Below are positions 19,701 through 46,755 of a stretch of DNA of 46,755 nt, in pieces (position 1 is the first letter of the stretch; each line of letters starts with the position of its first letter). Source of the DNA: Planctomycetota bacterium (GTDB lineage: Bacteria > Planctomycetota > UBA1135 > GCA-002686595); the NCBI GenBank assembly GCA_021730845.1, contig JAKFYL010000065.1, forward strand, positions 1 through 46,755, written 5' to 3'. A program made the position numbers and the translations under genes. The notes under the pieces are model-generated. The model saw nothing but the letters and a program-made list of their open reading frames with translations. It searched no databases and was not told the origin of the DNA.

Positions 19701-21941
19701 CTCTACATCCGTGACGAGGGCCACGCGCGCGTGCAAGCCCTCGAAAAGATCGTGGGACAAAAGCGTGTTGTCGGGGACGCGCTCGGTCAGCGCCGCCGCG
19801 AACGCATCCACGTCGTACAAGCCCTTACCTGTGAAGATGCCTTCGCCGAACAGATCCTGATAGGTGTCGGAGATGGCCGTGGTGTATGGATCAACGCCGG
19901 TGTGACCGGCGTAGATGCGCGCAAACAAGGACCCCGCAGCGCTCGCTGTGGTCACACTTACGCGCGGCTGCAGGATCCCATAGCCAGATGTAACTCGCTG
20001 CCGGATCGTGTCGAATCGGGGTCGATTCAACGGGTGGAGCGCAATGCCAATGAGTTTGCGGGCAGCGTCGCGCGGCAGGTGGGTATCGGAGTCGAGGGTG
20101 ATGCAGTAGCGCACCTTGGGCAAAACTTCCAGGTTTCCGACTTGTACGGTGTAGCTCGTGTCGGTGGCGCCTCGCAGCAACCGATTGAGCTCCTCGAGTT
20201 TGCCACGCTTGCGCTCCCAACCCATCCAGACACCCTCGCTTGGATTCCACGCGCGGTCTCGATGCAGCAGGAAGAAGCGGTCGCCGCGGCCATCGCTCAG
20301 GCGTGCATTCAGGCGCTCGATGCCAGCCTGGGCAGAGGCCAAGATCTCTGCGTCGCCTGGTAGCACTCGCTCTGAAGCATCCAAGTGATCTCCCAGGATC
20401 GCGAAATGGATGTAGGGATCGAGATTTCCCAGGGCCAATACGTGCAAGTGCTCAATCAGACTTTCGACTCCATCCAAGCTGGAGAGCAGAGTTGGCACCA
20501 CGACTAGGGTGCGCGCCTCGGCCGGGATGCCGCCCTCCAGATCCAAGCGAGGCAGCCGTTTGGGCCGCACCAGCCCGGCCAGCGCGCGCTGAATGCCCTG
20601 GATGGCTAGTTCACTGGCCGGTAACACAAGGAGCAGCGCGGTGAAAACCTGCATCACCCCGCGTGCTCCAGTGTGCTCGGCATACGCGATGCCGACGCTC
20701 ATGAGCAGCCCCGTCGCTAGCACGATGGCGCCAAGATAGAGCGCCGTTGCGTGGGCAAAGGCCTGGCGCTTGAGTGTGCGCACCAGCCCGGGGCGCCAAG
20801 CCAAGACGGCCTCCAGGTCACCTCGTCCTGCGCCAATGAGGTGATGACCTACATGCGCAGAGAGTGCGGCGGGACCATCACGTTCGGCACACAAACGTGC
20901 GCTCCCGATAGCACGCATCGCCACGCGCACTTGCTCCTCGCCGGTCTTCTCGGCCAACATTTCGACCGCTTGCCGATAGCGATCGCGTGTCAAGAAGTCC
21001 ATAGTTCCATAAGCGTTCGCCGGATCGCGCTGTAGCACGCGCTCCACCAAACTCACGGACTCGACAAACGTGGCCCAATCCAAGTCGGAGCACAGCCGCA
21101 AGCTTGCAATGGCGTTGGCTATCGACACCTGCACGGTCGCTTGGCGCTGGTGTTCTCTGCGGATCACCTCCTCGAGCGTGAGGCCATTGTTTGCACAATG
21201 CACTTCGATGTCGCGCAAGGTGCCGGCCATCCGTGGTCCGTATTCGCGGGCACGCTGCAGTAGCTGCACGACCATGGGTGGACGCACGTCGCCGGACAGC
21301 TTCAAGTGCATGCTCTTCGTGCGGTCCGCATGGGCTATCCAATCGTTGGCTGTGCGGCGCCCCAGGCGTGCGTCCTGGATTTCATCGGCCAAGCGCCTTA
21401 CGTTTTCTATGAGTGCCAGCTTGAGCATGCTCGGCCATGCCCAAAGCTCCCCGATCGTTAACGGAGTGACGGTCTGAAAACTGTCGATGAAACGTGTCAA
21501 CTGCTGGCGATCCAGCCGGCTGTCGCTGTGCCGGATCACCTCGACTGCAAGTGCATACACGCGTGCCTGGCCGTCCATTTCGCGTGCCGCCATTTTGGGG
21601 AGCTCACGGTAGTAGTCGCCTGGTAGGTCTTGGCGCACGCTCTGGAATTGGGATTCAATCAACGGAAAATTGTCGAGAACCCACTCCGCAGCAGCCGTGA
21701 TAAATTCACCGTGGTGCACGTCGTTGGATAGTTCCTTGTAGACCGTGCGAAGCAAGCGGACGTTGTCCTCTAGGCGCGCAAAGGCGCCGCGTCCGATTTC
21801 GGCCGTTGACGTCACCGTGAACCGCGCAGCCAGTGCCCGCGCACGCTCTTCCAGGCGTTCGACACTCAGCAGCTCGTCGCGAAAGGGTGCGGCACGAACC
21901 ACGGGCCTACGAAACCCAACAAACTTAGTCATTCCAAGCAT
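13716..21941 (-). CDS. ndvB: Cyclic beta-1,2-glucan synthase (GT84 + GH94), 2741 residues
   Basis: A giant inner-membrane enzyme that polymerises glucose from UDP-glucose into beta-1,2-glucan and closes the ring; the product acts in the periplasm in osmotic adaptation. An N-terminal helical region ends in membrane helices near 395-455. The GT84 glycosyltransferase (about 470-800) has DSDTHLP (near 617), [15 protein letters not shown] and the R-x-x-RW motif [11 protein letters not shown] (near 765). More membrane helices lie near 820-990, followed by a glucoamylase-like domain (about 1020-1400). Two GH94-type regions follow, the second with the catalytic-type motif [12 protein letters not shown] near 2415. 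The length matches known NdvB/ChvB proteins (about 2800). ATGs at 21941 and 21932 are both possible, with GGAGAG just upstream. It appears monocistronic. Confidence 0.96.
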
Positions 21942-32731: not shown

Positions 32732-35431
32732 CTAAGGAATCTGCTGGATTTCCAGGTCTTTCCAGCTCATTTCCGTCTTGGCGCCCAGGCTTTGCAGCAC
32801 GATGGCCCCCAAGTTGTGCGAGCGCGCCGGGTCCAGCGCGTCGTTGACTACCACGTCGTTGAGACGCACCACCAAACGTGTGCCGCCAGCTTCTTCCGTG
32901 CAGCGCACGGCCACCGTGAACCACAGATCCGGCTCCATCAACTGAGTGCCGAGCGCGGACAGTCCGCGCAGGCTGCCAGTTTTTTCACGGCTCGTGCCCG
33001 TGTGATTGAGCACCAGTTCGTAGCCGGGTGCCTGCTCCGGCGGCGCGTTGGAGCGCAGGAACACCGATCCCTCGCCGCCGCCGTTGAGTCGGCAACGACC
33101 GCGGAACTCGAATTGGCGATAATCCGTTCGAGCGCTCAGCAAACGACCGGCTCCACGAGCGACGATGACTCCGTCTTCGACCGTCCAGGGGTCCGATCCA
33201 GTGATCGAACCGGACTGCGCTAGCCAACCGGCAAGCGTGCTGCCGTCGAACAGCCTGACCCAACCCTGATTGGGATCACCGGGCAGGGCGCGCGGCTCGC
33301 GCAGACGCATGGTCAGGTCTTGAATCGCAATCTGGCCGCGACCGCCCTGCAACACCAAGGGCCCTTGCGGCTGCTCGCCCGTCAAGGGCGCTCCCGCGGT
33401 GGGCCCGGTGAGTTCGACCTCTTCTTGCATGAGCGTGTCGTCGATGAGCACGCGCAAGAATCGCGCGTTTGCCGTCTTGCGGCCGCTGGCATCGAAGCGC
33501 GGCGCGCAAAAGCGCACGCTCAAGCCGTGCCACTCCCCGGGCCCGCGGTAGGCTCCAAACACCGGCGCACGAGCCGCAAAGCTTCCGTCCGCTGCCGCCG
33601 CCAAAGCGCCACTGTCGTGCACGGACGCCTGAGCGCCGGGCGCTGCATGCTGATCGCGCAACTCGATTTCGTAGCGGCCCATCAAGAACAGTCCCGAGTC
33701 GCTGCCTTCGGGAAGCATGAAACGGAGCGAAAGATCGATGTCCCCAAACTCCATGCGCGAGGTCAAATCGTCCGGAGCCGGTGAACCCGCGTTGGAAAGC
33801 GTGCGCCCTTCGTGTGGCCGTCGATCGACTTCCTCTTCGGCAGTGCGCACGAGTTGTCCGGCGGCGCCCAAATCGATGGTGACTCCTCCTCGCGCCCAAC
33901 CCTGACCGGACCAGATCTTCAACGGCTCGTCCTGGGTCAGCAACAGCATGCCTTCGCCACCCGACTCGCGCGGCCGAGGCATGGAGTAGGGCTTGGCAAC
34001 AGGGACGACGGTAGGGTCGTCTGCCAAGCGCCTTACGGTGTAGGCCAGTTCATTCTGCACCAGCACTTCGCCTTGCGCGCTGCGCAGACCGTCGAACCGC
34101 AAGCGTGCGACCTTGCCGGCTGTCAGGCTGCGCACGAAAACTTTGGCGCTGCGGCAGTCCTTTGCGAGTTCGATGGACTCGACGGCCCGCGGCGCAATGT
34201 TTCGCAGCGGCGAACCATATTCCCACCAATATTCGTAGTCGTACTGGTGCACTCGAACTTTTTCGGCTACCAGTCCGCTGGGGTCGATGGGTTTGGTGAA
34301 ACTGATCGCAAATCCTCCCGGCACTAGGCGCGTCGATTGGATCTCGAACGGGGTCTGGCCGCTCCAGCGCATGCGTGCGACGCCGTCGCCGGGGGCTTGC
34401 CCGCCCCAGCCGCGATCAGTGAGTCCGCAAAACAGGCTTCCATCCGCGGCGAATCGCACCCGAATGGCCGAGCCCACCCCGCGGCGGAATGGGTAGACGA
34501 CGCCTTGGGTTACGCCACCGAAGTCCTCGAGCTCGGCGCGCAGGATCATGCCGTTGGTCATTTCGGCAAGGAACAACTGCCCAGCAAAGGGTCCGAACTT
34601 TCCGTCGCTGGTGTCGCTAGCCATGTCGCCGGTGGAGCGCGACCAGTCATAGGGAATCCAAATCGCTGCGTCGTCGCGGGCCTGCTTCGGAGCCATAGTT
34701 CCACTAGGAAGCCGCTTCTCGCGTTGGAACTCCTCGGTCCAGCGCAAGGAAGCTGGATGACCGTGGAAGGTCCCCTCGCGCGCATGGAACAGCCCACAAG
34801 CTGCCATCCAATCGCCCTGGTTGTCGGTCACGAGCAAACGGCCAGTGCTATCGCGGCCGATGCCGCACGGGCTGCGAAACCCGGAGGCAAAAGGATGCAC
34901 GGCGCCCTTGGGGTCGACGCGCAGCACCCAGCCGCGGTAGGGCACGGGCGAGACGCCCATCCACCAGGGATCTCCGAAGGCCACGTTCAGGGACACATAC
35001 CAGTTGCCTTGTTCGTCGCGCGGCAAGCCGAAGGCGAACTCGTGGTAGTTGCCGGAAAGCCCCCAGTCATTGGTTAGAGTTTGCACGCGATCACACTGGC
35101 CGTCCGAATCGTCGTCGCACAAGAGCGAAATCTCGCCGCGCTGCAGCACATAGATGGAGTTGCCCTCCACCGCCAGGCCCAATCCCTCTTGCAGTCCTTC
35201 GGCGAAGAGTCTCGGCATCGCGCTCGAGATGTCCGCGGTCAGGGGATCGCGGTAGATCCAAACTTGACCGCGGCGCGTGCTTACCACCAGTGCACCGTCG
35301 GGCAAGAAGCCCAGGCCACCAACCTCCAGGCGCTCACCGGGCGGAGACGGCAGATGCTCCACCGTGTATCCATCGACCTCCGACTGGAACAGCGCCATCA
35401 GGCTCGCGCCCACTACTAGAAAGCCGCTCAC
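32732..35431 (-). CDS. Sorbosone-dehydrogenase-like beta-propeller fused to DUF1080 domain
   Basis: An 899-residue exported protein with a short N-terminal signal (MSGFLVVGASLMALFQS). Residues about 20-370 form a six-bladed propeller of the PQQ-dehydrogenase/L-sorbosone-dehydrogenase type (GGLGFLPDGALVVSTRRGQV, GNYHEFAFGLPRDEQGNWYV, ASGFRSPCGIGRDSTGRLLV). A beta-rich linker region follows. The C-terminus (about 700-899) is a DUF1080/3-keto-disaccharide-hydrolase-like lectin fold (WVRLFDGSTLAGW, WTVEDGVIVARGAG, then EGSVFLRSN); a related partial copy lies near 570-680 (FGDIDLSLRFMLPEGSDSGL). Such combinations are common in Planctomycetota. Its start overlaps the stop codon of the monoheme cytochrome (ATGA), so the cytochrome probably accepts its electrons if it is a dehydrogenase; the substrate is probably a sugar, but this is inference. 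Confidence 0.85.
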   Translation of the reverse strand: MSGFLVVGASLMALFQSEVDGYTVEHLPSPPGERLEVGGLGFLPDGALVVSTRRGQVWIYRDPLTADISSAMPRLFAEGLQEGLGLAVEGNSIYVLQRGEISLLCDDDSDGQCDRVQTLTNDWGLSGNYHEFAFGLPRDEQGNWYVSLNVAFGDPWWMGVSPVPYRGWVLRVDPKGAVHPFASGFRSPCGIGRDSTGRLLVTDNQGDWMAACGLFHAREGTFHGHPASLRWTEEFQREKRLPSGTMAPKQARDDAAIWIPYDWSRSTGDMASDTSDGKFGPFAGQLFLAEMTNGMILRAELEDFGGVTQGVVYPFRRGVGSAIRVRFAADGSLFCGLTDRGWGGQAPGDGVARMRWSGQTPFEIQSTRLVPGGFAISFTKPIDPSGLVAEKVRVHQYDYEYWWEYGSPLRNIAPRAVESIELAKDCRSAKVFVRSLTAGKVARLRFDGLRSAQGEVLVQNELAYTVRRLADDPTVVPVAKPYSMPRPRESGGEGMLLLTQDEPLKIWSGQGWARGGVTIDLGAAGQLVRTAEEEVDRRPHEGRTLSNAGSPAPDDLTSRMEFGDIDLSLRFMLPEGSDSGLFLMGRYEIELRDQHAAPGAQASVHDSGALAAAADGSFAARAPVFGAYRGPGEWHGLSVRFCAPRFDASGRKTANARFLRVLIDDTLMQEEVELTGPTAGAPLTGEQPQGPLVLQGGRGQIAIQDLTMRLREPRALPGDPNQGWVRLFDGSTLAGWLAQSGSITGSDPWTVEDGVIVARGAGRLLSARTDYRQFEFRGRCRLNGGGEGSVFLRSNAPPEQAPGYELVLNHTGTSREKTGSLRGLSALGTQLMEPDLWFTVAVRCTEEAGGTRLVVRLNDVVVNDALDPARSHNLGAIVLQSLGAKTEMSWKDLEIQQIP

Positions 35432-37026
35432 AGGCCAAACTCCGCCAGGACGCGCTCCAGACCTGCCTCATCCGATGCCGCCGCGGGTGCAAACACAAGC
35501 CGCAGCTTGGCGGCAGACGCGTTCGAGCACGCCACGCGCACCGAGGCCGTACCACTTGGATCCAGACCGCAACTGAGCGCTCCTTCGATGACCAGCAGTG
35601 CGTACTGATCGGGAGCTACTCTTGCCCACCACGCAGTCAACGAGTTTGGCCCCTCCTGGGCCTCCGTCCCTATGTCCCCAAGCGCGCCAGCGCTCTTTGG
35701 CTGCGAACGAGAACCCACATGGTGATCTCCTGCTGGAAGCTTGGCTGCCAAGACAGTGACAATGGACGACGCGCTCGTGGCTTGAATCGTCAGCCGCCGT
35801 TCGATGGCGGTTCCTGTGGACAGCGCGATGGCCGACAGGTCTTCGCGGACCTGCGCGATGGTCTTGTGCTGGGGATCCAGCAGTTCGTAGGCAAGACCAG
35901 CCTCTTCCCCGCGGGCCCAGGTGTCCTGGATGCGCGCACCGGCCTTGAATTGCTGCCCGTCTTGACTGACATGGAACGCGGCACTTGCCCCGCCGGCCTC
36001 GTAGTGGTGAACCAGTGTTCCTAGCGGACGAAGGTAGCTGCCGCCGCGGCCATCCCAGTCTTCACGCTTGGCGAACGCCCCTAGGCGCGCAGCGATGGGC
36101 CGCACGTCGTCGAGCGCGTATTCCATACTCAGGCCGCCGGGAAAACCGAGCAAGAGCCCGCGCACGACTTCAGGTCCGTCTTCGACGACCGGCGGCAGCT
36201 TGCCGCGCGCCATGGCGCAGTGCCCCCGCACGACGAGCTGGGCACTGTCGCCGGACTCGTTCTCGGTCAACGGCATGAGCGTGCGCACGTAGTCAACGAC
36301 CAACCAACGCTCCTCTTCCGTCAACGAACCGGCGTAGGCGGGCATGACCGAGCGTCCTGGAAGCCCGGAGGAAATGGTGCGAAATAGCGCCTCGCGCGTG
36401 TTGCCAAAAGCAAAACCGCCGGCAGCGAAATCGCGCGCCACAACTTTGAGTTGCTTGGCCGTTTCGCCGTCACCCTTGCCGGTCAGGCCGTGGCAGCCAG
36501 CACAATTGCGCGCGTACAGGTACTTTCCATCGCGCGGTTCTTCGGGCTCCTCCACTTGCGTGGGTTGGACGGACGCCAGCACGCTGCCGCTCTTCGAGCG
36601 CTCGGCGCCGGCCGCGTTCACGCGCTTGCCGACAAAGCGTTCCAGCTCGGAGTCGGTTGCGACGGGCGTATCTTCGGTCGGAACTTTGCTAGGTACAGCG
36701 CGTATCTCTGGTTCGGGGGCGGTTTGCGCTGGCGCCGCTTGGCCCTTTGGCAGCACGAATCCCTCGATCCCCTTGGGCTTGGCCGGGACGGGCGCGGCTT
36801 GCGCAGGCGCCGACGCGGGCTCAGTTGCCTTCGGCACACCCTCCGCGGCTGCGACTGGCTTTGCCGTGCCGGCGACGGTCGATGCGGCGCCCTTGGAGGA
36901 GTTCGCCGAAACCTTGGTTCGCAGCGGATTGGATAGCGGCGGCGCGCAAGCCGCCGTGCAAACCGCCGCGAAACATACTCCCAACCACACGCCACGCGAA
37001 AGGTTCGTTTCCACAGGTGCGTCCAA
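35428..37026 (-). CDS. Monoheme cytochrome c lipoprotein
   Basis: A 532-residue protein with signal peptide and lipobox (GVWLGVCFAAVCTAACAPP), so lipid-anchored. A Pro/Ala-rich low-complexity linker occupies about residues 35-165. One class-I cytochrome c domain lies at about 170-255, with CXXCH in YARNCAGCHGLTGKGDGETA and distal Met in GRSVMPAYAGSLTEEER, ending WLVVDYVRTLMP. The C-terminal half (about 260-532) is beta-rich and contains repeated GRGG and acidic stretches; no family is recognised, though such regions in cytochromes sometimes bind a partner dehydrogenase. It is translationally coupled (4-base overlap) to the propeller/DUF1080 gene and follows the 11-heme cytochrome gene by 66 bases. 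It is probably the electron carrier linking the two. Confidence 0.88.
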   Translation of the reverse strand: MDAPVETNLSRGVWLGVCFAAVCTAACAPPLSNPLRTKVSANSSKGAASTVAGTAKPVAAAEGVPKATEPASAPAQAAPVPAKPKGIEGFVLPKGQAAPAQTAPEPEIRAVPSKVPTEDTPVATDSELERFVGKRVNAAGAERSKSGSVLASVQPTQVEEPEEPRDGKYLYARNCAGCHGLTGKGDGETAKQLKVVARDFAAGGFAFGNTREALFRTISSGLPGRSVMPAYAGSLTEEERWLVVDYVRTLMPLTENESGDSAQLVVRGHCAMARGKLPPVVEDGPEVVRGLLLGFPGGLSMEYALDDVRPIAARLGAFAKREDWDGRGGSYLRPLGTLVHHYEAGGASAAFHVSQDGQQFKAGARIQDTWARGEEAGLAYELLDPQHKTIAQVREDLSAIALSTGTAIERRLTIQATSASSIVTVLAAKLPAGDHHVGSRSQPKSAGALGDIGTEAQEGPNSLTAWWARVAPDQYALLVIEGALSCGLDPSGTASVRVACSNASAAKLRLVFAPAAASDEAGLERVLAEFGL

Positions 37027-37092
37027 GCATCCTGCGTGGCCGCGCGGACGTCAAGGTCAGCGCGGCCCCGAGCACCTACCTAGCGACCCGAA

Positions 37093-39879
37093 TCAGGGTC
37101 CAATGTAGGTCGAAGCGTTGCCGCGTGGCGCGCCGTTGGCGTCGATCCACGAATCCAGCACGATTCCGTTCACTGGGTCGGCCAGTTTTTGGATCAAAGT
37201 CGCGCCCAAAGGACCGGCCATTTCCGGATCCAGCGCGCCGTCGCGCAGGCTCGGCCCGACTGCGGCATCGAGCCAAGTGTGGTTGTTGGAACCGTTGGCT
37301 ACGCCGCTAGGTTCGACCACGCGGTCCAAGTTGAGCGTGACGTTGGCCGGGTTGAAGGCACTCGCCGGCGCCACGCCGTCGCATCCGATGCGATTGGCAT
37401 TGGTATCAAGCGGATTCACGGGCTTGCCGTCCTGATCGAACAGGAACAGTCCCGTGCCTAGGCCAGCGACCATGTGGGCCCACAGCGGCGAATCCATTTG
37501 GTTGCCGGTGTTCTGACCAAAGTGCGTCTTGAGCAACTGGAAATCCAAGGCTCCGAAGTTTCCGCTGGCCATGTTCGTGCGGAACGCGTTGTACTGCGCA
37601 CCGAACGATGCCAGAGCACTGTCGGTCAGGTGGCAAGTCGAGCAGTACCGCGGTCCCTCGGTCGTGGGCTGCACCTTGCCTCGAATCGAGTGCGCCATGA
37701 TCGAGTTGTGACTCAATGACGGGAACGCAGCCGGAGGGGCGTTGCCAATTCCCTTGCGATCCGTGAAAGCAAACACCTTGGAGAGCACTCCGTTCTGGTC
37801 CTCGAAACGATAGAAGACCTTGGTGTTCGCGCTGAACTGCGTGATCTTGCCGCGCGTGTTGACGCCCAATTGGAAGAACAGTGGTGACTGGTACGTGAAG
37901 TCCGCCGTCCTTTGCTTGTAGACGATGCGCTCGCCCGTGATGTTGCTGAAGTTGTTGCCGGTGTTGTACTCGCCGGACAAGTGGCAACCCATGCAGGTGT
38001 TGGTCCACGAACCGTGACAGGCAACGCAGTCCATGCGGTCGGTGTGGCTGAATCCTGCAGTAACACCGCCGGTTTGCAGCGGGCCCATGCCGTTGGTCGC
38101 ATCCGCGTCGACCCGCCCCATGGCGTAGCTGGCCTTGGCGGTGTAGATCGGTTGGTTGGTTGTCGGATGCAACTTGCCGGTGTTTGAAACCGTGTCCTTG
38201 ACTTGGGGAATGTAGTGTGTCGCCCCAGTCAACCGGCTCTTCAAGAAGTACTCGCCCGCACCGTTCTTGGTGACGTGCTTGAGCTGGTTGCCTTCGGCAT
38301 CGACCGCGACCTGGGCCGCCGTTCCGGCGTAGGTGGTGCCTGCCTGAGTCGACGCATAGGCTTCGATCGTGCCGTGGCAGCTCTCGCAGCGGATGGCGAC
38401 TTGCTGCTCCATGCGGCTGGCGATGTCGGGATTGGATCCGCCCGTCGTCCCACCCCCGTGCAAGTCCCAACTGCCGTGGCAGTCGATGCAGCCCATCCCT
38501 GCTTCGTAGTGTACGTCGGCAGGCGTGTCGTCTCGACCGTCGCCGTCGTAGTCCTCCTCGAGGATGTACTGGTTGTGATTGCGGCCATTGAACGTGTGGT
38601 TGTCCACGACCGGATCGAACAGGCGCTCGTCGCCGAACGTGGTCTTGAAAGTCACCGGGTTGGCCGGGTACTGCAAGTGGTTCTTCACGTCGGCGTTCTG
38701 GTCCAAACGCAGGCCCCAGTACTGCATGACCGTACGGTTGGAACCCTGGTGACAACCCGCACAGGCGTAGTCATCGATACCTTTGATGACCTCGCCGCTG
38801 GGCAGCGTCTTGTTCACGCTGGAAATCTTGTGCGAGCGCGGGTGGGAACGCTCCGGATCGTCGATGTCGTCCGGATCCACGGGCTCGAGCTTGTTGATAT
38901 TCGGGTCCGAGCTTCCCGAGCGTCCACCCAAGCTGTACTGCATGTGGCACGCGGTGCAGCCCGATGAGCGGAAGTCGCCCGCGCGGTTGTTGGCACCGGC
39001 GCTGCCCAAGTGGCAGTCACCGCAGGTGAAAGAGATTTGCTCGGCGAACAGTTTGGCGAGCGGTGAACCGTTGATCAGCGAGTTGTCGGCATTGACGTCG
39101 TCGACCAGAGCGCCCGCGAGGAAATCGGGGTTGTTGAACAGGTTGCCAGGGAGCGTAACCCCGAAAACGCTGTAGACCGGCATTTCCACCAATTGTGCGA
39201 CCGCCCCGACGGCCGCATTGGCCAGGTTGAAGTTGTTGTCCACCACGGCCCGGTGCGAGAAATCGCCAGCCGTGTCCTCGTACAGCCCGGCGTTGCCGGG
39301 TAGTGAGTTGTCTACCCCTGCGGCGAACAGCGCGCCCGAAAAAATGCCTGATTCGGTTGCGAGCAGGCTGCTGCTCACGGACTCGGCGTGGTTGGAATGG
39401 CATTGCCCACAACCCTCACCCTTGCTGACGACGCGCACGTCACCCGGGTTGATGAAGCGCAAGTAGTCGAGCGCCGTGTAGTTCTTGTTGCCAACTTGGT
39501 AATCCGGGAACTTGTCGATGCCGGCCAGCGTCAGACGGTTGAAGTAGGCCTTGGCGTTGTTGTCCTGGAACGCGTCGTCGCCAATTTCGGGCGGCGGCGG
39601 TACGTGGGCTGTGAGAACGTCATCCGCGTTCGGATTTCCCCCGTGGCAGGTCGAGCACATGATATTGGCGGCACCGGGGAAGGGGTGCGGATTCTCGATG
39701 CCTGGCCCCTTGTAGTCGTTCTTCAGACTGCCGTTGTGGCACAGCATGCAAGACTCGGCTTGCTGCGTTTGCAGACTGCCTGTTTCGCCGCTGCAAGAAG
39801 CGAACACGCCCAGGCCCCCAAGGAGCGCAAGGGCGATGGTGCGCAAGGCACCGTCCACTCTGGTTTGGATCTGGTTCAC
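37093..39879 (-). CDS. 11-heme cytochrome c lipoprotein
   Basis: A large exported cytochrome of about 928 residues with eleven CXXCH motifs: CMLCH, CSTCH, CGQCH, CGDCH, CTACH, CAGCH, CIDCH, CESCH, CVACH, CMGCH and CSTCH. They are spread from the N-terminus to about residue 770. The signal peptide ends in a lipobox (LALLGGLGVFASCSG), so it is lipid-anchored, possibly at the outer membrane or cell surface. The open frame extends to 40047. GTG 39879 gives a normal signal peptide with AGGAG 10 bases upstream; GTG 39918 has a stronger GGGGGAG and is the main alternative. No named multiheme family is recognised. It lies downstream of the barrel and 7-heme genes, suggesting it accepts electrons carried across the outer membrane. 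Confidence 0.9.
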   Translation of the reverse strand: MNQIQTRVDGALRTIALALLGGLGVFASCSGETGSLQTQQAESCMLCHNGSLKNDYKGPGIENPHPFPGAANIMCSTCHGGNPNADDVLTAHVPPPPEIGDDAFQDNNAKAYFNRLTLAGIDKFPDYQVGNKNYTALDYLRFINPGDVRVVSKGEGCGQCHSNHAESVSSSLLATESGIFSGALFAAGVDNSLPGNAGLYEDTAGDFSHRAVVDNNFNLANAAVGAVAQLVEMPVYSVFGVTLPGNLFNNPDFLAGALVDDVNADNSLINGSPLAKLFAEQISFTCGDCHLGSAGANNRAGDFRSSGCTACHMQYSLGGRSGSSDPNINKLEPVDPDDIDDPERSHPRSHKISSVNKTLPSGEVIKGIDDYACAGCHQGSNRTVMQYWGLRLDQNADVKNHLQYPANPVTFKTTFGDERLFDPVVDNHTFNGRNHNQYILEEDYDGDGRDDTPADVHYEAGMGCIDCHGSWDLHGGGTTGGSNPDIASRMEQQVAIRCESCHGTIEAYASTQAGTTYAGTAAQVAVDAEGNQLKHVTKNGAGEYFLKSRLTGATHYIPQVKDTVSNTGKLHPTTNQPIYTAKASYAMGRVDADATNGMGPLQTGGVTAGFSHTDRMDCVACHGSWTNTCMGCHLSGEYNTGNNFSNITGERIVYKQRTADFTYQSPLFFQLGVNTRGKITQFSANTKVFYRFEDQNGVLSKVFAFTDRKGIGNAPPAAFPSLSHNSIMAHSIRGKVQPTTEGPRYCSTCHLTDSALASFGAQYNAFRTNMASGNFGALDFQLLKTHFGQNTGNQMDSPLWAHMVAGLGTGLFLFDQDGKPVNPLDTNANRIGCDGVAPASAFNPANVTLNLDRVVEPSGVANGSNNHTWLDAAVGPSLRDGALDPEMAGPLGATLIQKLADPVNGIVLDSWIDANGAPRGNASTYIGP

Positions 39880-40102
39880 GAGTTGACTGCTCCTAACGCT
39901 TCGTTGCAACGTTCCCACGGCTAACTCCCCCTTTGCTTGGCCACCGCTTGCGGCGACACGTCTCCACAACAGTCCATCGGAGCCCGCCGGACAATGGCTT
40001 GAAAGCGAACGAGAATTCCTTCGATCGGGCCGGGAAGAAACTTCCACGTTCGGCTCGCCAATAGGAATGGGCGAGTTCGTGGGCCGGACCGCCGGGGGCG
40101 AG

Positions 40103-40759
40103 CTACAAGTTTTGCTCGGCCTGCTGCCAGGTGCGGGGTATGTGACATCGGTCGCAGCGATCGACCCATCCCAAGTTGAGGTGGTTGGGATTGTTGGCGT
40201 TGGCCAGATCGGCTCGATGGCACGTTACGCACTCGGTATCCACGGGTGTGAACTTGCCGACTTCCGCCCCGACGTGGCAGCGCCTGCAGGCGGTCGAGGC
40301 GTGCACCCCGATCAATGGGAAGCGCGTGCGCTGATGCATGGCGATTTGCCCGACCGGTTGCCAGGTTTGCTCTTGGTGGCAATCCTCGCAGCGTGAGCCC
40401 AGTTGCCCGGCATGGATGTCTTCGTGACACCCGCCACAGCCGCGCTGCGCAAACGTCGCCACGGGGCCGCGATCGTTGTGGCAGCGCAAGCAACTGGCCT
40501 GCGTGTGCGCGCCATTCAAAGGCACGCCGGTTTCGGCCAGGTGATCGAAGTGGAAGTCTTCGGAAAGCGTTTGCCAGCCGGATCCCACGTGGCACAGCGA
40601 GCAATCGCCGGGAAACGTTCCGTGCGGCAGGACAGGGCCAAGACCGCCCCACCACAGATGCTGTTTGACCGACTTGGAACCACCGGTCACGCACGCCGCA
40701 ACCAGCAGCAGGAAGGCCAGCACCGCTAGCGCTCGGCCCGAGAGCACGTCTTTGCGCAT
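40103..40759 (-). CDS. 7-heme cytochrome c lipoprotein
   Basis: A 218-residue exported cytochrome with seven CXXCH motifs (CSLCH, CLRCH, CGGCH, CEDCH, CRRCH, CVTCH, CDRCH), about one heme per 30 residues. Extra histidines follow between motifs, as in cytochrome c3 / doubled-CXXCH families. The N-terminus MRKDVLSGRALAVLAFLLLV with AAC forms a lipobox, so it is lipid-anchored. The start lies 3 bases after the barrel gene's stop codon, indicating coupled translation. By analogy with porin-cytochrome systems, a small multiheme protein encoded next to the barrel could sit in its pore or at its periplasmic mouth; this is inference. Confidence 0.92.
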   Translation of the reverse strand: MRKDVLSGRALAVLAFLLLVAACVTGGSKSVKQHLWWGGLGPVLPHGTFPGDCSLCHVGSGWQTLSEDFHFDHLAETGVPLNGAHTQASCLRCHNDRGPVATFAQRGCGGCHEDIHAGQLGSRCEDCHQEQTWQPVGQIAMHQRTRFPLIGVHASTACRRCHVGAEVGKFTPVDTECVTCHRADLANANNPNHLNLGWVDRCDRCHIPRTWQQAEQNL

Positions 40760-40762
40760 GGG

Positions 40763-42511
40763 TCAAAAGCTCCTTTGGAGGTACACGCCGAGCGCGACCG
40801 AGTTCTCGTCGTCCCAGAATCCCAATTCGACGTTGCCCGAAAAACTCCAGCCGGACTGGGTCTGATAGTCCCGGTTCAGGCGCAGGCGGTGTTGCGGAAT
40901 GTCGTTGTTGTTGTCCGAAAACGTGTCGATCTGATTGGCCGCGAATTCGTAGTCCAGCGCCCAACGCCCTTGAGGCGCGTTCCAGCTCAACGACAGCCGG
41001 CCACCCAGCGAGTCCGAGTGTCGTCCATTCGCTCCAAAAATGGACAGGTCGGTGACGCTTTGCTGGAAAATGAAGTTGCGCTGCTCCCAACCCACTTCCC
41101 CGTCGGCACCTTCCTCGTCTTCGTCAGCCCACACTCCCAACGCAGCGCGCCAACGAGAATCGGCGCTTGCTTGGCTGCGCAAACGCACGGCCAAGCGATC
41201 ATTGTGGTCATCGGCCAGTTGATCGTCTTCGACCGGCAAGAATTCTTCGCGATCGATTTCCGGGAATTCCATGTGGCTGTAGATGAAATCCAGCGTGGCA
41301 CCGTCCTCGGAGCGCGTGCCGGACGTCAAATAGGCTTGGGTGAGATCCACGCCGCTGCCTTTTTCTTCGTCACCACTGGTGTAGTAGTCGACCCAGACCG
41401 TGCCCGAAAAATTCCAGCCCTTGGGCGGCAAGTAAGCCAGCTTGCCGACCGCCAAGTCGCGATCGGCATTGGAATTGTGAAAGGTCTTTTGGAAACCCGC
41501 GGCGGCGGACAATTGCTCGCTAGCGTCCGCGATCCAGCGGTAGTAGGTCGAAACCTGGAAGTCCTGGAGGGATTCGAAACTCTTGTCGGGCTCCGGCATC
41601 CAGCCAATGCTGGCGCCGTAGGAATCGCCGCTGGGCAGTCGACGGCCCCACTCGAAGCCATCGATGACGCCGAACTCGCTCATGCCGCGACTGAGAAAGC
41701 GCCCGAATTCCAAGCGATCTGGCGCAAAGCGTGTGCCACCCAAGGAGTAGGAAATGCGCTCAGGGCGCAAGCGCCCTTGGCTCTCGTCGTCATCGTCGGG
41801 AACTTCCGTGCGGCGCACGTTGATTTCCCCTTCGAGGTGCAGCGCGTCGCCGATGCCGGTCAGGTTCTCGTACTCCACGTCCGCTCCCAAGCGGAAGAAG
41901 CCGTCTTTGCGGTCGTCCTCGCTGCTCCAGATTTGGTCGGCAATGAAATAGGTCCGCCCGGTGACGGACGGTGGGCGTTCTTCCGGCCGCACGGGTTGCA
42001 CTTTGGCCAGCAGCGGCTGGTTGGGCGTGAATTCGCTGTCCTGGTTGGTCCAGGTGGGCTGTTCGCGTGCCTCTTGCGCGTTCGTCTCGGTCGCTTGGAC
42101 AGGCGACTCTTCGGCCGGTTTGACTGCCGGTGCTTCGAAGCGATCCGCGGAGACTTGGGCCATGCCGCGCGTGCCCGGTCCAGGCAAGAATCCGGGATCG
42201 ACGAGTTCAACCAAGGATGATCGGTCTAGCGCTTCGCTGATCGTTCCCGCAAAGGTGCCGCCTTCCCGCGGCAGGAAGAACACGCGATCGCCGCTGCGCA
42301 GGCCGTCGGCTGTACCGCGATCGATGTTCACGAAATTGCCGCGTGCGGATGTGACCCGGAATTCGACCTTCTCGGGGTCGCCCGCGGAGCGGACCTCTTG
42401 ACTGGAGACCTGTTCCTCTTGCGCGGGCGCCGGCTCTTGGACATCCGCGCTTTGAGCCCAGGCCGAACCGGCGCAGGCCAAAGCGGCCGCGGCCAGCGCG
42501 ATGAAAGCCAT
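40763..42511 (-). CDS. Large outer-membrane beta-barrel with an N-terminal SH3-like domain
   Basis: A 582-residue protein with a clear signal peptide (MAFIALAAAALACAGSAWAQ). A short beta-domain lies at about 45-130 (FVNIDRGTADGLRSGDRVFF), resembling the SH3-like repeat of periplasmic adaptor domains. About 400 residues of alternating amphipathic strands with acidic loops follow (WIADASEQLSAAAGFQKTFH, GWNFSGTVWVDYYTSGDEEK), ending in aromatic Phe (LGVYLQRSF), the usual outer-membrane barrel terminus. The frame is open far upstream, but the preceding gene's stop at 42541 and the signal peptide fix the start near 42511 (or GTG 42523). Placed between 23-heme and 7-heme cytochrome genes, it is the candidate porin of an outer-membrane electron conduit. 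No MtrB/PioB-type motif was recognised. Confidence 0.85.
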   Translation of the reverse strand: MAFIALAAAALACAGSAWAQSADVQEPAPAQEEQVSSQEVRSAGDPEKVEFRVTSARGNFVNIDRGTADGLRSGDRVFFLPREGGTFAGTISEALDRSSLVELVDPGFLPGPGTRGMAQVSADRFEAPAVKPAEESPVQATETNAQEAREQPTWTNQDSEFTPNQPLLAKVQPVRPEERPPSVTGRTYFIADQIWSSEDDRKDGFFRLGADVEYENLTGIGDALHLEGEINVRRTEVPDDDDESQGRLRPERISYSLGGTRFAPDRLEFGRFLSRGMSEFGVIDGFEWGRRLPSGDSYGASIGWMPEPDKSFESLQDFQVSTYYRWIADASEQLSAAAGFQKTFHNSNADRDLAVGKLAYLPPKGWNFSGTVWVDYYTSGDEEKGSGVDLTQAYLTSGTRSEDGATLDFIYSHMEFPEIDREEFLPVEDDQLADDHNDRLAVRLRSQASADSRWRAALGVWADEDEEGADGEVGWEQRNFIFQQSVTDLSIFGANGRHSDSLGGRLSLSWNAPQGRWALDYEFAANQIDTFSDNNNDIPQHRLRLNRDYQTQSGWSFSGNVELGFWDDENSVALGVYLQRSF

Positions 42512-42540
42512 GGGCCGGCGCACTGCGACCGCGTTCCGGA

Positions 42541-44655
42541 CTATCTGTTGCGCGGCTTGCGCCGCAAAAACACGTCCTCCTCGACTCCGTGACAATCTAC
42601 GCATTCCGTGCCCATCGGCTTGTATCGGATGAACTGCAGTCCGCGCTCTACGACGGGCAGGTGGCAGGCGGAGCAGGCAACGTCCTTGTGGGCCTCTCCG
42701 AGCCGAAATCGGGAGTCGCGCTCGTGGTTGAAGCGCAGAAAGTTCGCCGTTTCGTCCGTGTGGCAACGGGCACAGTCAGTTTTTCCACCCAGTTCGAACT
42801 GGCGGCCATGGGGTTCGGCGTGGCAATCCGCGCAGGCCTGCCCCTTGGCGCGCTCCCAGGTTCGGCCAGCGGCCGCGGGACGCGCAAGGGGCGTGTGACA
42901 GGCGTTGCACGCGGCGGTGCCGTGCGCCCCTGCCAAGGTGAAGCCGGTCCACGCGCCGTGGTCGAAGCCCTGATCCAGTGTCCGGAACGACACTTCGTTG
43001 TGACAGCGCGCACAATCCGAGCGCGAACCCACCGCGGCCGGCAGTGCGGCCAAGTCGAAAGCGCCACCGTGGGGATCCGCGTGGCAAGTCACGCAGCCTT
43101 GGTATTCACCGAAGTGCTCGGACACCTTGCCGAAGGTCCGGCCGGCTTCGTCGGGTTCCGGGGCCAGCGGGTGGCAGACTTGGCAGCCTTCCGCCTCGTG
43201 GGCACCCTTGACGGCGAATCCGGTCCAGCGCCCATGATCGAAATCGTCAGGACTGACGGCGTCGAACGACTCGGTTTGGTGGCAACGCGCGCACTCGCCG
43301 TGCTCGGGTGTCGGCACGCCCGCGGCGAAGGGCGCGAAAAAACCGCCGTGGGCGTCCTGATGGCAACTGTCGCAGTTGCTGGGGGTGCCGTGGAATACAC
43401 GCGGCTGGTTGGCCGGCGGATCCTGGTGGCATTCGTTGCACTCGATCCGGGCGTGCTCGCCGGTCAGAGGCAACTCCGTCCGTTCGTGCTTGGCTAGATC
43501 GAACTCGTGCGGCAAGAAATGCTCGTCCGCGTGGCAAGCGCTGCAATCTCCCGCTCCCGCGGGCACCAGCGCCCGCGAGCGCGGCGTCAATGGCGGGAGC
43601 GCAAACGGGCCGCGCTCGAACTGGCCCAGGTGAGGATCCAGGTGGCACTGCGCGCATAGCCCTTGTTCGCGACCCGGATAGCGCGCCAGGAATTCTTCCG
43701 TCGCGGGGTCGTGGCACTTTGCGCACTCGACTTGGTCGTGGGGCGGGTCGAGGTCGAAACCGGAGGCCGAGTGCCAGCGCGGTTCCAGCTTCAGACGTTC
43801 GTCGCGAAAACTGATGTGGTCGGCCGCATGGCAGGTCACGCATGCCCCGGGGGCCGCGAGCGATTCCATGCGCGCGACTTCGTCCACGAAGTCGGTCTGG
43901 TGAGGAGATGCGTGGCAGTCGACGCAAGTCCTGGGGCTGGGCTTGCCCTTGCGCAGAGTCATGGCCTCCAAGGAAAAGCGCGAGTCCTTGGCGTGACAGT
44001 CACGGCATCCAACATCTGCGTGGCCGCCGATCAACGGCAGGTGTCGGTCGTGGTCCAGCGACTGCAATTGGTCAAAGGACTCCTGCCCGTGGCAACTGGC
44101 GCAACTGGAGGCCATCTGGCCTTCGTGCGGGTCTTCATGGCACGTCGCGCAATTGGAATCCAGTCCCAAGAAGCGCTGCGCGCCTTTGGGTAGCAATTCG
44201 ACGTCCGCGTTCTCGTGGCACTCCGCGCATTTGAGTTCCAGGTGCTTGCCATCCATCTTCCAGCCCAGCAATTCGTGATCGAAGTGCTCGGGATCCGGAA
44301 TGCCGGCACGCGCGAAGCTCAGCCGGTTGACGATCGCAAACCCGGTGCCGTGGTGTTCGCTGTGGCACGTGGCACAGGACTCGGCCAATGTGCGTTCGAC
44401 CTTTCCGTGCAACCCGGTACCCGCTTCGATTTGCTCCTCGATGGGCTCGTGGCACGCCAAACACGACGAAGTCATGCTCGAAAACCAACCGCCGTGGCAC
44501 TCCGAGCAGCTTTTCTTGGAACCCAGTGCCTCTTCGCGGCCGTGCACTGTGGTCAACGGACCCGGTGAAGTGCGCTCCATGTCCACCGCTGCGACCAGCG
44601 CAACGATGGTTATGGAAATGAAGGCGATGCCGGCCTGAGTTCGCCCGAACTTCAT
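42541..44655 (-). CDS. 23-heme cytochrome c with N-terminal membrane anchor
   Basis: A 704-residue multiheme cytochrome with 23 CXXCH motifs that I counted one by one, from CSECH near residue 50 to CVDCH near 690, about one per 31 residues. Many motifs are followed by HxxPHxGxF-type patterns (CHEDPHEGQ, CHLDPHLGQF, CHADPHGGAF), typical of cytochrome c3-like tandem modules, which suggests repeated internal duplication. The N-terminus MKFGRTQAGIAFISITIVAL is a single membrane helix without a clear cleavage site, so it is probably anchored in the inner membrane facing the periplasm. Its start overlaps the stop codon of the ferredoxin/FAD/cytochrome-b gene by 4 bases (ATGA). Role inferred: a molecular wire carrying electrons from that oxidoreductase across the periplasm. 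Confidence 0.94.
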   Translation of the reverse strand: MKFGRTQAGIAFISITIVALVAAVDMERTSPGPLTTVHGREEALGSKKSCSECHGGWFSSMTSSCLACHEPIEEQIEAGTGLHGKVERTLAESCATCHSEHHGTGFAIVNRLSFARAGIPDPEHFDHELLGWKMDGKHLELKCAECHENADVELLPKGAQRFLGLDSNCATCHEDPHEGQMASSCASCHGQESFDQLQSLDHDRHLPLIGGHADVGCRDCHAKDSRFSLEAMTLRKGKPSPRTCVDCHASPHQTDFVDEVARMESLAAPGACVTCHAADHISFRDERLKLEPRWHSASGFDLDPPHDQVECAKCHDPATEEFLARYPGREQGLCAQCHLDPHLGQFERGPFALPPLTPRSRALVPAGAGDCSACHADEHFLPHEFDLAKHERTELPLTGEHARIECNECHQDPPANQPRVFHGTPSNCDSCHQDAHGGFFAPFAAGVPTPEHGECARCHQTESFDAVSPDDFDHGRWTGFAVKGAHEAEGCQVCHPLAPEPDEAGRTFGKVSEHFGEYQGCVTCHADPHGGAFDLAALPAAVGSRSDCARCHNEVSFRTLDQGFDHGAWTGFTLAGAHGTAACNACHTPLARPAAAGRTWERAKGQACADCHAEPHGRQFELGGKTDCARCHTDETANFLRFNHERDSRFRLGEAHKDVACSACHLPVVERGLQFIRYKPMGTECVDCHGVEEDVFLRRKPRNR

Positions 44656-46755
44656 GGACGACCTCCTCGACCGAGGACGCCGCCATAGGTAAGGGCGTAG
44701 AGCACGTGCAAGCCGATGAGCACGAGCATCAGCACGGCGAGCCAGCGGTGCAGGTAGCGCCAGGTGTTCAGGATCGCGCGCAGATCCTCTAGGTGCGAGG
44801 CTGCCAGGCCCGTGCGGTAGGCCTGTTTGGCCATGAGCAAGGTTTCCGCGAGCTCCGCTGGCGGCACATCATGTTGTGTGCCCATGCCGTGGATCGACTT
44901 GAGCGCCATGCGCAAGCGCCGCTCGCCCGAGTACAGCGCGCGCACTCGCCCGAGGAAAGTAGCCTGCCACTGGATGGACTCGATCAGTTTCTCGATCTCG
45001 CGCCGCGCCAGCTCGACGAACTTCCAGTTGGACTTGTCCAACTGCTCTAGTTGCCCATGCAGCCGCAGCTTGAGTTCTTCCAACTCCAATTCGCGGCCAT
45101 TGGCGGCGCGTGGCAAACGCGCGTAGAAGTACCGGCCGATCGCGCCCGTGACCAGCAAGACGCCCATGAGCCAAAGCGCGTGCCCCCCGACCGTGTGGCG
45201 CGGCGACATGGCCGAGTGCAGGAGCGCGACCAAGAAGGCCATGATTCCAGTGCCGATGTGGCTGGTCATCCAAGCCCCGAGCGAACCGAGCTGGAAACCC
45301 AGCCAGCGCGCACGGCGCACCAGATAAAGCAAGTTGACGAAGACCAGCGCGAGCGACGCGATACCCAGACCCAGCCCGACATTGCGACCCGGACGCAGCA
45401 GCTCGTGCTTGTCCAAGGACGGACGGATTTCGTTCGGAAGCCAGTAGTAGTCAGAGTGCCAGGCCGCGAAAATCAACGCCGACAAAGACATCAACAGCGC
45501 GACGGCCAACGCTTGGGTGATTCCCGTGCCTTGTTCGATCAGGGGCTCCGATTTGGGCCTGAGATTGGGATCGAAGGACACGCCCGAATCGGATAGCAAC
45601 TGGAAGGGCGTGATACCCCCGGCCATGACGAATACTTCGTCGTTGGGAATTCGCTCGCGTCGCGCGGAGTCCCCATCCGCGATTTCTAGATCCACGGACT
45701 CCGGGTCGACCGCCAGCAACTGGCTCTTGGTAAGCACGCGCAGCTTTCCTGCGGCGACGCTCGCTTGCAAGTTGGCTTCGTTGCGCGCGCGCAAACGGGT
45801 GAAATGCTCTCGTCGGTAGCTGAGCGTGACTTCGTTGCCGGGTTGTTCGGCGAGCCCGAGCGCCGTTTCCACGGCGCTGTCCCCGCCGCCGACGACCAGC
45901 ACGCGCCTGTTCTGGTAGGAGTGTGCGTCGATCAAGCTGTAGGAGACCTTGGCCAGTCCTTCCCCGGATACGCCCAACTTGCGCGGCGATCCACGCCGCC
46001 CCAAAGCTAGGCAGACGTTGCTGGCTTCGATCACTCCGGCCGAGGTTTGCACAGCGAACCCGCCGCCTTCCAAACGCTGCACGCCCTGGAACGAAACGCC
46101 GCCGTGGATGGGAAGCTGCTGCTCTTGGGCTACTTGCTCCCACAGCTGGATCAGTTCCTCTTTTTCGTAGCTCGTGCGCTTGAGCTGGCCATGCAAAGGC
46201 AGCTCGACCGGCTGCGTGACGACCAGCTTGCGGCGCGGATACTTGGCGACCGAGCCGCCCAGACGCTCCTCCTGATCGATCGTCACGAAGTGCAGGCCAG
46301 CGCGCTTGGCTTCTAGGGAACACGCGAGCCCCGCAGGCCCTGCACCCACTACACACAGGTCATAGCGCTGGCTGTCGCGAGCGCCGTCCGCTCGACTGCC
46401 GGCCGTGAGCGCCGCGACTTTCTGCGCGACAGCAGTACCCTGATCGATGGCGCTCTTGATCAAGGCATGCGCCGTAATCTCGCCGGCTAGGAACAAGCCC
46501 GGCGAGCCGACGGCTTCCAAGCCATCGGATAGTACAGGGACATCTTGGCGCTTGGCGAGGTTGGAAATCGTGACCGTGATCGCACCCGCCGGACACTCGC
46601 GCTCGCAAGCCGCGTGGCCCACGCAACGCGCGCCATTCACGACCATGGCCTGGCCGTGCACGAGTTGCAGCACGCCATCTTCGGGGCAGGCCGTAACGCA
46701 CGTGCCGCAGCCCAAGCAGCGCGATAGGTCGACGACCGGGTGGTGGAGAACGGAT
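44652..46755 (-). CDS. Ferredoxin / FAD-NAD(P) oxidoreductase / cytochrome b fusion (N-terminus beyond window)
   Basis: At least 700 residues; the frame is still open at the right edge, so the true start lies outside. In order there is a 4Fe-4S motif CLGCGTCVTACP and a second cluster motif CVGHAACERECP with His in place of one Cys. Next is a segment SPGLFLAGEITAHALIKSAI like the FAD-closing motif of thioredoxin-reductase folds. A FAD Rossmann motif (VVGAGPAGLACSLEAKRAGL) and a second nucleotide-binding motif (VLVVGGGDSAVETALGLAE) follow. The C-terminal third has membrane helices with paired histidines (SHIGTGIMAFLVALLH, YLHRWLAVLMLVLIGLHVLY), as in b-type heme domains. It likely takes electrons from NAD(P)H or ferredoxin and passes them through heme b to the 23-heme cytochrome, whose gene overlaps its stop codon. 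Confidence 0.88.
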   Translation of the reverse strand, partial: SVLHHPVVDLSRCLGCGTCVTACPEDGVLQLVHGQAMVVNGARCVGHAACERECPAGAITVTISNLAKRQDVPVLSDGLEAVGSPGLFLAGEITAHALIKSAIDQGTAVAQKVAALTAGSRADGARDSQRYDLCVVGAGPAGLACSLEAKRAGLHFVTIDQEERLGGSVAKYPRRKLVVTQPVELPLHGQLKRTSYEKEELIQLWEQVAQEQQLPIHGGVSFQGVQRLEGGGFAVQTSAGVIEASNVCLALGRRGSPRKLGVSGEGLAKVSYSLIDAHSYQNRRVLVVGGGDSAVETALGLAEQPGNEVTLSYRREHFTRLRARNEANLQASVAAGKLRVLTKSQLLAVDPESVDLEIADGDSARRERIPNDEVFVMAGGITPFQLLSDSGVSFDPNLRPKSEPLIEQGTGITQALAVALLMSLSALIFAAWHSDYYWLPNEIRPSLDKHELLRPGRNVGLGLGIASLALVFVNLLYLVRRARWLGFQLGSLGAWMTSHIGTGIMAFLVALLHSAMSPRHTVGGHALWLMGVLLVTGAIGRYFYARLPRAANGRELELEELKLRLHGQLEQLDKSNWKFVELARREIEKLIESIQWQATFLGRVRALYSGERRLRMALKSIHGMGTQHDVPPAELAETLLMAKQAYRTGLAASHLEDLRAILNTWRYLHRWLAVLMLVLIGLHVLYALTYGGVLGRGGRP

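Follow-up and report, generated by a model that had tools for sequence, protein, structure and literature searches.

The closest described counterparts of the locus analysed here are the PCC3 systems, in which a porin is combined with two cytochromes, one extracellular (median 34 hemes) and one periplasmic (median 21 hemes), and with an inner-membrane protein (IMP) of ~300 aa (He et al. 2017, PMC5566968). The IMP has five transmembrane (TM) helices and two WX3HX13H motifs with SGXXG between them, and was read as a di-heme cytochrome b (PMC5566968). In Gallionellaceae, the periplasmic cytochromes of PCC3 carry 21–27 hemes and the extracellular ones 10–35, and the former were judged potentially long enough for crossing the periplasm (PMC10734462). 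Ferredoxin-NADP+ reductase genes have been found near other porin-cytochrome clusters in a 2026 study (PMC13264449); those clusters, in contrast to ours, feature large decaheme cytochromes, and neither a fusion nor a PCC3 IMP was reported for them. No link of FAD or ferredoxin proteins to PCC3 was found in the open-licence PCC3 papers searched, and a search of the open-licence literature for PCC3 combined with flavoprotein and multiheme returned no paper; an earlier report elsewhere is possible.

The window, i.e. the whole stretch of 46,755 nucleotides that was analysed, comes from a fragmented MAG that is 88% complete and that named relatives of the reductase assign to the Planctomycetota. 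At 32732–46755 it contains seven co-directional ORFs on the minus strand (Table 1), with 4-base overlaps at the reductase/H23 and monoheme/propeller junctions, and 42 CXXCH motifs in four of the encoded proteins (23 in H23, 7 in H7, 11 in H11 and 1 in the monoheme protein); both this gene layout and the heme total agree with what a sequence-only reading of the same DNA had given. The contig end falls within the reductase gene. The barrel likely starts at ATG 42511, as the ORF listed earlier overlaps H23, and the start of H11 is probably near 39858–39918 rather than at 40047. Elsewhere in the window (13716–21941, minus strand), a protein of 2741 aa resembles cyclic beta-glucan synthetases and contains a glucoamylase domain as well as GH94 supersandwich and catalytic domains.

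Table 1 Predicted features of the electron-transfer locus and its two adjoining genes
Feature	Coordinates	Strand	Basis
Fused inner-membrane reductase: Fer4 + FAD/NAD(P) + PCC3-type IMP domain	44652..46754	-	Pfam, relatives' alignment; 5' end missing
Fer4 domain, residues 3-60 of reductase	46575..46748	-	Pfam, ligand count over homologs
YpdA/TrxR-like FAD and NAD(P) domain, residues 130-400	45555..46367	-	Pfam, NCBIfam, PDB profile search
IMP (cytochrome b) domain, residues 410-690	44685..45527	-	Profile common to stand-alone IMPs, other phyla
WX3HX13H motif 1, W495-H513	45216..45272	-	Motif scan
WX3HX13H motif 2, W665-H683	44706..44762	-	Motif scan
H23, predicted 23-heme periplasmic wire	42541..44655	-	CXXCH count; kept in relatives
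Predicted outer-membrane barrel: small N-terminal beta domain + 22 strands	40763..42511	-	AlphaFold2 model, cross-phylum homologs
H7, 7-heme lipoprotein	40103..40759	-	CXXCH count; matches N-terminal module of larger cytochrome
H11, 11-heme lipoprotein, proposed surface terminus	37093..39918 (ORF opens 40047)	-	CXXCH count, conservation
Monoheme lipoprotein, adjoining, outside conserved conduit	35428..37026	-	Pfam cytochrome c; synteny
Propeller + 3-keto-disaccharide hydrolase (DUF1080), outside conserved conduit	32732..35431	-	Pfam, NCBIfam; synteny

By its IMP signature and its matching outline, the cluster is classified as PCC3-type, PCC3 itself being a prediction. It shares with PCC3 a predicted porin, a periplasmic cytochrome of more than 20 hemes, a predicted extracellular cytochrome and an IMP with both motifs and [ST]GXXG; however, the IMP is fused behind a Fer4-FAD portion here and stands alone in PCC3, the extracellular cytochrome is reduced to its 7-heme N-terminal module, a separate 11-heme lipoprotein is added, and the host belongs to the Planctomycetota, whereas PCC3 is of Proteobacteria. 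The sequence-only reading had put the conduit forward as a candidate for an undescribed one, which the PCC3 IMP signature (He et al. 2017, PMC5566968) contradicts. It had also held that conserved synteny with a characterised system would speak against its proposal; the synteny is indeed there, but with a system that has so far been predicted. Its wider proposal, a trans-envelope conduit with a Fer4/FAD/cytochrome b reductase, a 23-heme wire, a barrel and surface lipoproteins, is supported, with conserved synteny. PCC4 resembles the locus in having a porin, multiheme cytochromes and a five-helix IMP with the same motifs; some of its members have an Fe-S gene adjoining or joined to the IMP, and it includes Planctomycetes. 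We rejected it as the assignment because its cytochromes, with 4, 5 and 10 hemes, are periplasmic and none is extracellular, against 23, 7 and 11 hemes here. The general plan of MtrCAB, MtoAB and PioAB, with a periplasmic multiheme cytochrome, a barrel and (in MtrC) a surface multiheme lipoprotein, is likewise shared, but the periplasmic cytochrome has 23 hemes here instead of 10 and the inner-membrane entry is a different one.

In NADPH oxidases and ferric reductases, FAD takes electrons from cytosolic NAD(P)H and hands them to a pair of trans-membrane b hemes whose ligands follow the pattern HX13H. This comparison has been drawn for the PCC3 IMP (PMC5566968); in our case, unlike in NADPH oxidase, the flavin domain is N-terminal, YpdA/TrxR-like and accompanied by predicted Fe-S clusters, and the electrons would be accepted by a cytochrome wire. 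Fer4, Pyr_redox and YpdA/TrxR-like FAD domains were recognised in the reductase by Pfam and NCBIfam, and a PDB profile search placed the FAD domain in the YpdA fold family; the NCBIfam cut-off for YpdA bacillithiol disulfide reductase (TIGR04018) was missed, with 141 bits against 340. The WX3HX13H motifs begin at residues 495 and 665 and have TGAIG between them, a pattern shared by nearly all relatives; the T of the window stands in place of the S of SGXXG, and relatives have either S or T. As the alignment shows, relatives have about 45 extra N-terminal residues containing a TM helix and then a strongly basic stretch. Because this basic stretch follows the helix, the positive-inside rule suggests that the Fer4/FAD domain faces the cytoplasm.

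The Fer4 domain has four Cys in its first motif and three in its second, and of the 107 homologs in which this second motif is readable, 92 have His at the position of the fourth. Such a ligand set suggests that the second cluster may be a [4Fe-4S] cluster with a His ligand, or else a [3Fe-4S] cluster. An invariant PGLFLAGE-type segment (reductase residues 80–92; 46479–46517) precedes GxGPAG, although it is similar to the FAD motif that TrxR-like enzymes have at the C-terminus. This order raises a circular permutation of the FAD domain as a faint possibility, with the best PDB profile matches at E 0.06–0.11.

The reductase was found in 50 of the 392 Planctomycetota genomes searched, and its clusters were of three types. 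In type A, the order reductase, 23-heme cytochrome, barrel, 7-heme cytochrome, 11-heme cytochrome recurs across the Planctomycetota, so that the gene order of the window, for which a search in other genomes had been proposed, is indeed found elsewhere. Type B has a cytochrome of 23–29 hemes (mostly 26), a barrel and a larger cytochrome, mostly of 13–37 hemes, and in type C the reductase is split into two adjacent genes. The cultured strain Saltatorellus ferox Poly30 (L091) has a fused reductase, a 26-heme cytochrome, a barrel and a 16-heme cytochrome. As judged from this synteny, the conserved core is a set of five genes, namely those for the reductase, H23, the barrel, H7 and H11. A chance origin of the cluster can be dismissed, because both the cluster and its heme numbers recur in dozens of genomes. 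When public genomes were scanned with the reductase alignment, loci were also found in Calditrichota, Zixibacteria, Krumholzibacteriota, Neomarinimicrobiota, Acidobacteriota, Gemmatimonadota, Bacteroidota, Ignavibacteriota, Nitrospinota, Myxococcota and Proteobacteria. We counted 21 Fer4-FAD loci from other phyla that are flanked by 6 kb or more on either side: an IMP-motif protein was present in 18, a cytochrome of at least 19 hemes in 19, and both in 17; the IMP profile also matches gammaproteobacterial IMPs. In about ten other phyla, the Fer4-FAD flavoprotein is thus a steady companion of clusters of the PCC3 type.

The tree of the FAD domain requires two changes between the split and the fused form. 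One fused group consists of Planctomycetota (48 rows, SH-aLRT 99) and the other of Myxococcota (3 rows, SH-aLRT 100), and the reductase of the window sits in a supported set of 20 fused-form rows that contains type A clusters. This tree suggests that Fer4-FAD was fused to the IMP twice independently, in the Planctomycetota and in the Myxococcota.

Upstream of the reductase, a gene common to 16 relatives encodes a DUF2959 lipoprotein in the two examples tested, and a second gene, present in five relatives, encodes a cytochrome c assembly protein (PF01578) in the two examples tested; these neighbours were seen in loci L036, L041, L081 and others, and in this genome both would fall past the contig end. 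They may belong to the system. Several genomes (G335, G293, G359, G340, G240, G155 and others) have two full-length reductase genes, and in at least six of these the two genes are divided between a type A and a type B cluster, which suggests that two conduits with different surface ends could exist in one cell.

H23 was assigned to multiheme cytochromes c by Pfam and NCBIfam, has 30.6 residues per heme and aligns with 20–24-heme cytochromes from other phyla. The MtrA/DmsE decaheme family (TIGR03508) did not reach its cut-off, as only the C-terminal part matched, with 54 bits against 192. Its N-terminus is hydrophobic; of the membrane-anchored 23-heme cytochrome of the sequence-only reading, the 23 hemes stand by count, whereas the anchor is uncertain, since this N-terminus could instead be cleaved. 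The outer-membrane barrel that had been proposed was obtained as a confident AlphaFold2 prediction (pLDDT 81, pTM 0.70), in which a small N-terminal beta domain precedes 22 strands. From the strand number and standard barrel geometry, its radius can be estimated at about 20 Å, like that of plug-holding 22-strand barrels, so the predicted barrel would not be too narrow.

No Pfam or NCBIfam family was matched by the barrel, the best PDB fold matches of its model were pilus ushers and porins (TM-score up to ~0.44), and MtrB was not found among the 50 listed fold matches, which sets it apart from the barrels of MtrCAB, MtoAB and PioAB. The model supports a large barrel, but not kinship to MtrB. 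At the profile level, the barrel reaches those of other phyla (hhalign 99.9%), and these in turn reach gammaproteobacterial porins (95%); a direct comparison of the Planctomycetota barrel with the gammaproteobacterial porins gave 6%, the 95% being obtained via intermediates alone. Next to the gammaproteobacterial FAD genes, large proteins are encoded that were considered as barrels and rejected because of their repeat-like sequences. The missing family and MtrB matches could be taken to mean that the barrel is an unrelated porin, the cytochromes being periplasmic or electron stores, and that there is no conduit across the outer membrane; however, the barrel gene adjoins cytochrome genes in many phyla and the lipoprotein cytochrome genes directly follow it, and we regard this explanation as improbable.

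H7 and H11 were both assigned to multiheme cytochromes c by Pfam and NCBIfam. H7 aligns to the first ~220 residues of the larger extracellular cytochromes found in types B and C, suggesting that type A retains that module alone. With 31.1 residues per heme, H7 is wire-like, as is H23, and H11, with 89.5, is less heme-dense. H11 was present in 29 of the 34 loci with a 7- or 10-heme cytochrome and in none of the 37 with 13 or more hemes (kinship ignored). Among the five short-cytochrome loci without it, four stop at most 400 bases downstream, and in the fifth case (genome G013) H11 lies on another contig. Split clusters of type C with 10 hemes likewise have H11, and the pairing with a short cytochrome therefore extends beyond the type A clade. 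All 29 of the 392 Planctomycetota genomes with H11 also contained the reductase (hypergeometric 1e-30, kinship ignored). H11 genes without a reductase or H23 in the same stretch were seen at G013:C47 (L176) and at L175, in genomes that have the conduit elsewhere. These patterns suggest that H11 replaces the long heme extension, as a highly conserved lipoprotein where the extracellular cytochrome is short.

H11 is the best-conserved long component, with 56–66% identity between relatives and the window over ~900 residues. A PDB profile search found no significant solved relative (best E 0.015), and AlphaFold2 from 7 sequences gave a pLDDT of 30, from which no fold is claimed. An identity as an UndA or UetJ undecaheme cytochrome was considered, but the PDB gave no support for it, with no UndA-type chain at E ≤ 1. 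The high conservation, together with 90 residues per heme against 31 in the wires, hints that H11 might be a surface redox enzyme with a specific substrate, interchangeable with the long wire on a shared NAD(P)H-powered conduit, though we consider this rather unlikely.

Pfam identified the monoheme protein as a cytochrome c and the product of the last gene as a 3-keto-disaccharide hydrolase (former DUF1080) with a propeller-like stretch. Both genes were absent from the type A, B and C clusters of relatives in the synteny survey, and monoheme homologs, present in 50 of the 61 family genomes, lay on other contigs than the cluster where both could be placed. On this synteny the two genes are not part of the predicted conduit. 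The path had been thought to end in this monoheme and sugar-dehydrogenase-like pair, and the wire to comprise four cytochromes; neither gene accompanies the cluster elsewhere, and three cytochromes with 41 hemes are left. A pathway of all seven genes, in which the propeller/DUF1080 protein would oxidise an extracellular sugar and pass electrons inward via the monoheme protein and the wire, could draw on the common strand, the gap of 66 bases between H11 and the monoheme gene and the 4-base overlap that follows; but the clusters of relatives without both genes, and the monoheme homologs on other contigs, make it very improbable.

We consider it probable that the five-gene core encodes a PCC3-type electron conduit of a version specific to the Planctomycetota, with an exchangeable surface terminus. 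In such a conduit, with hemes loaded and the proteins in a physical complex, cytoplasmic NAD(P)H (or ferredoxin) would exchange electrons with the Fe-S/FAD domain, from which they could pass to the two b hemes of the fused membrane domain and on to the H23 wire in the periplasm. H23 would then deliver them to the H7 surface module, in or at the barrel, and H7 to H11 outside, the putative exchangeable terminus. Given a conduit, outward flow is somewhat favoured, on circumstantial grounds: the membrane potential would help electrons to leave the negative interior, no RuBisCO was detected in this genome (88% complete), and three heme-copper oxidases were found in it. On the other hand, the same conduit could run inward, with an extracellular donor such as Fe(II), Mn(II) or reduced humics feeding H11, H7 and H23 and then the b hemes, to reduce quinone or NAD(P)+. 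Iron oxidisers are where PCC3 was found, and it was modelled as a route of electron uptake (He et al., PMC5566968), and multiheme conduits can work in both directions (PMC10734462); however, entry into the negative cytoplasm would oppose the membrane potential, the PCC3 of Sideroxydans ES-1 was not induced by Fe(II), its clusters being lowered with Fe(II) instead (PMC8788666), and no RuBisCO was detected in this genome, so that inward flow seems the less likely direction, albeit one to be taken seriously.

The kind of conduit has been described before; what appears to be new here is the Fer4-FAD companion, H7 as a module and the pairing of H11 with a short cytochrome. PCC3 has been predicted since 2017, with a putative role for its IMP and no cytoplasmic partner in the open-licence papers searched. 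A companion flavoprotein in about ten phyla, together with the two fusions, provides a testable entry point, namely whether NAD(P)H reduces the wire. The swap between the long cytochrome and H11 points to which part may be the surface terminus, and if H11 were an enzyme, an NAD(P)H-powered trans-envelope machine would drive a defined extracellular reaction. For the Planctomycetota, this means a probable electron conduit in about one eighth of the sampled genomes, the cultured strain Poly30 included.
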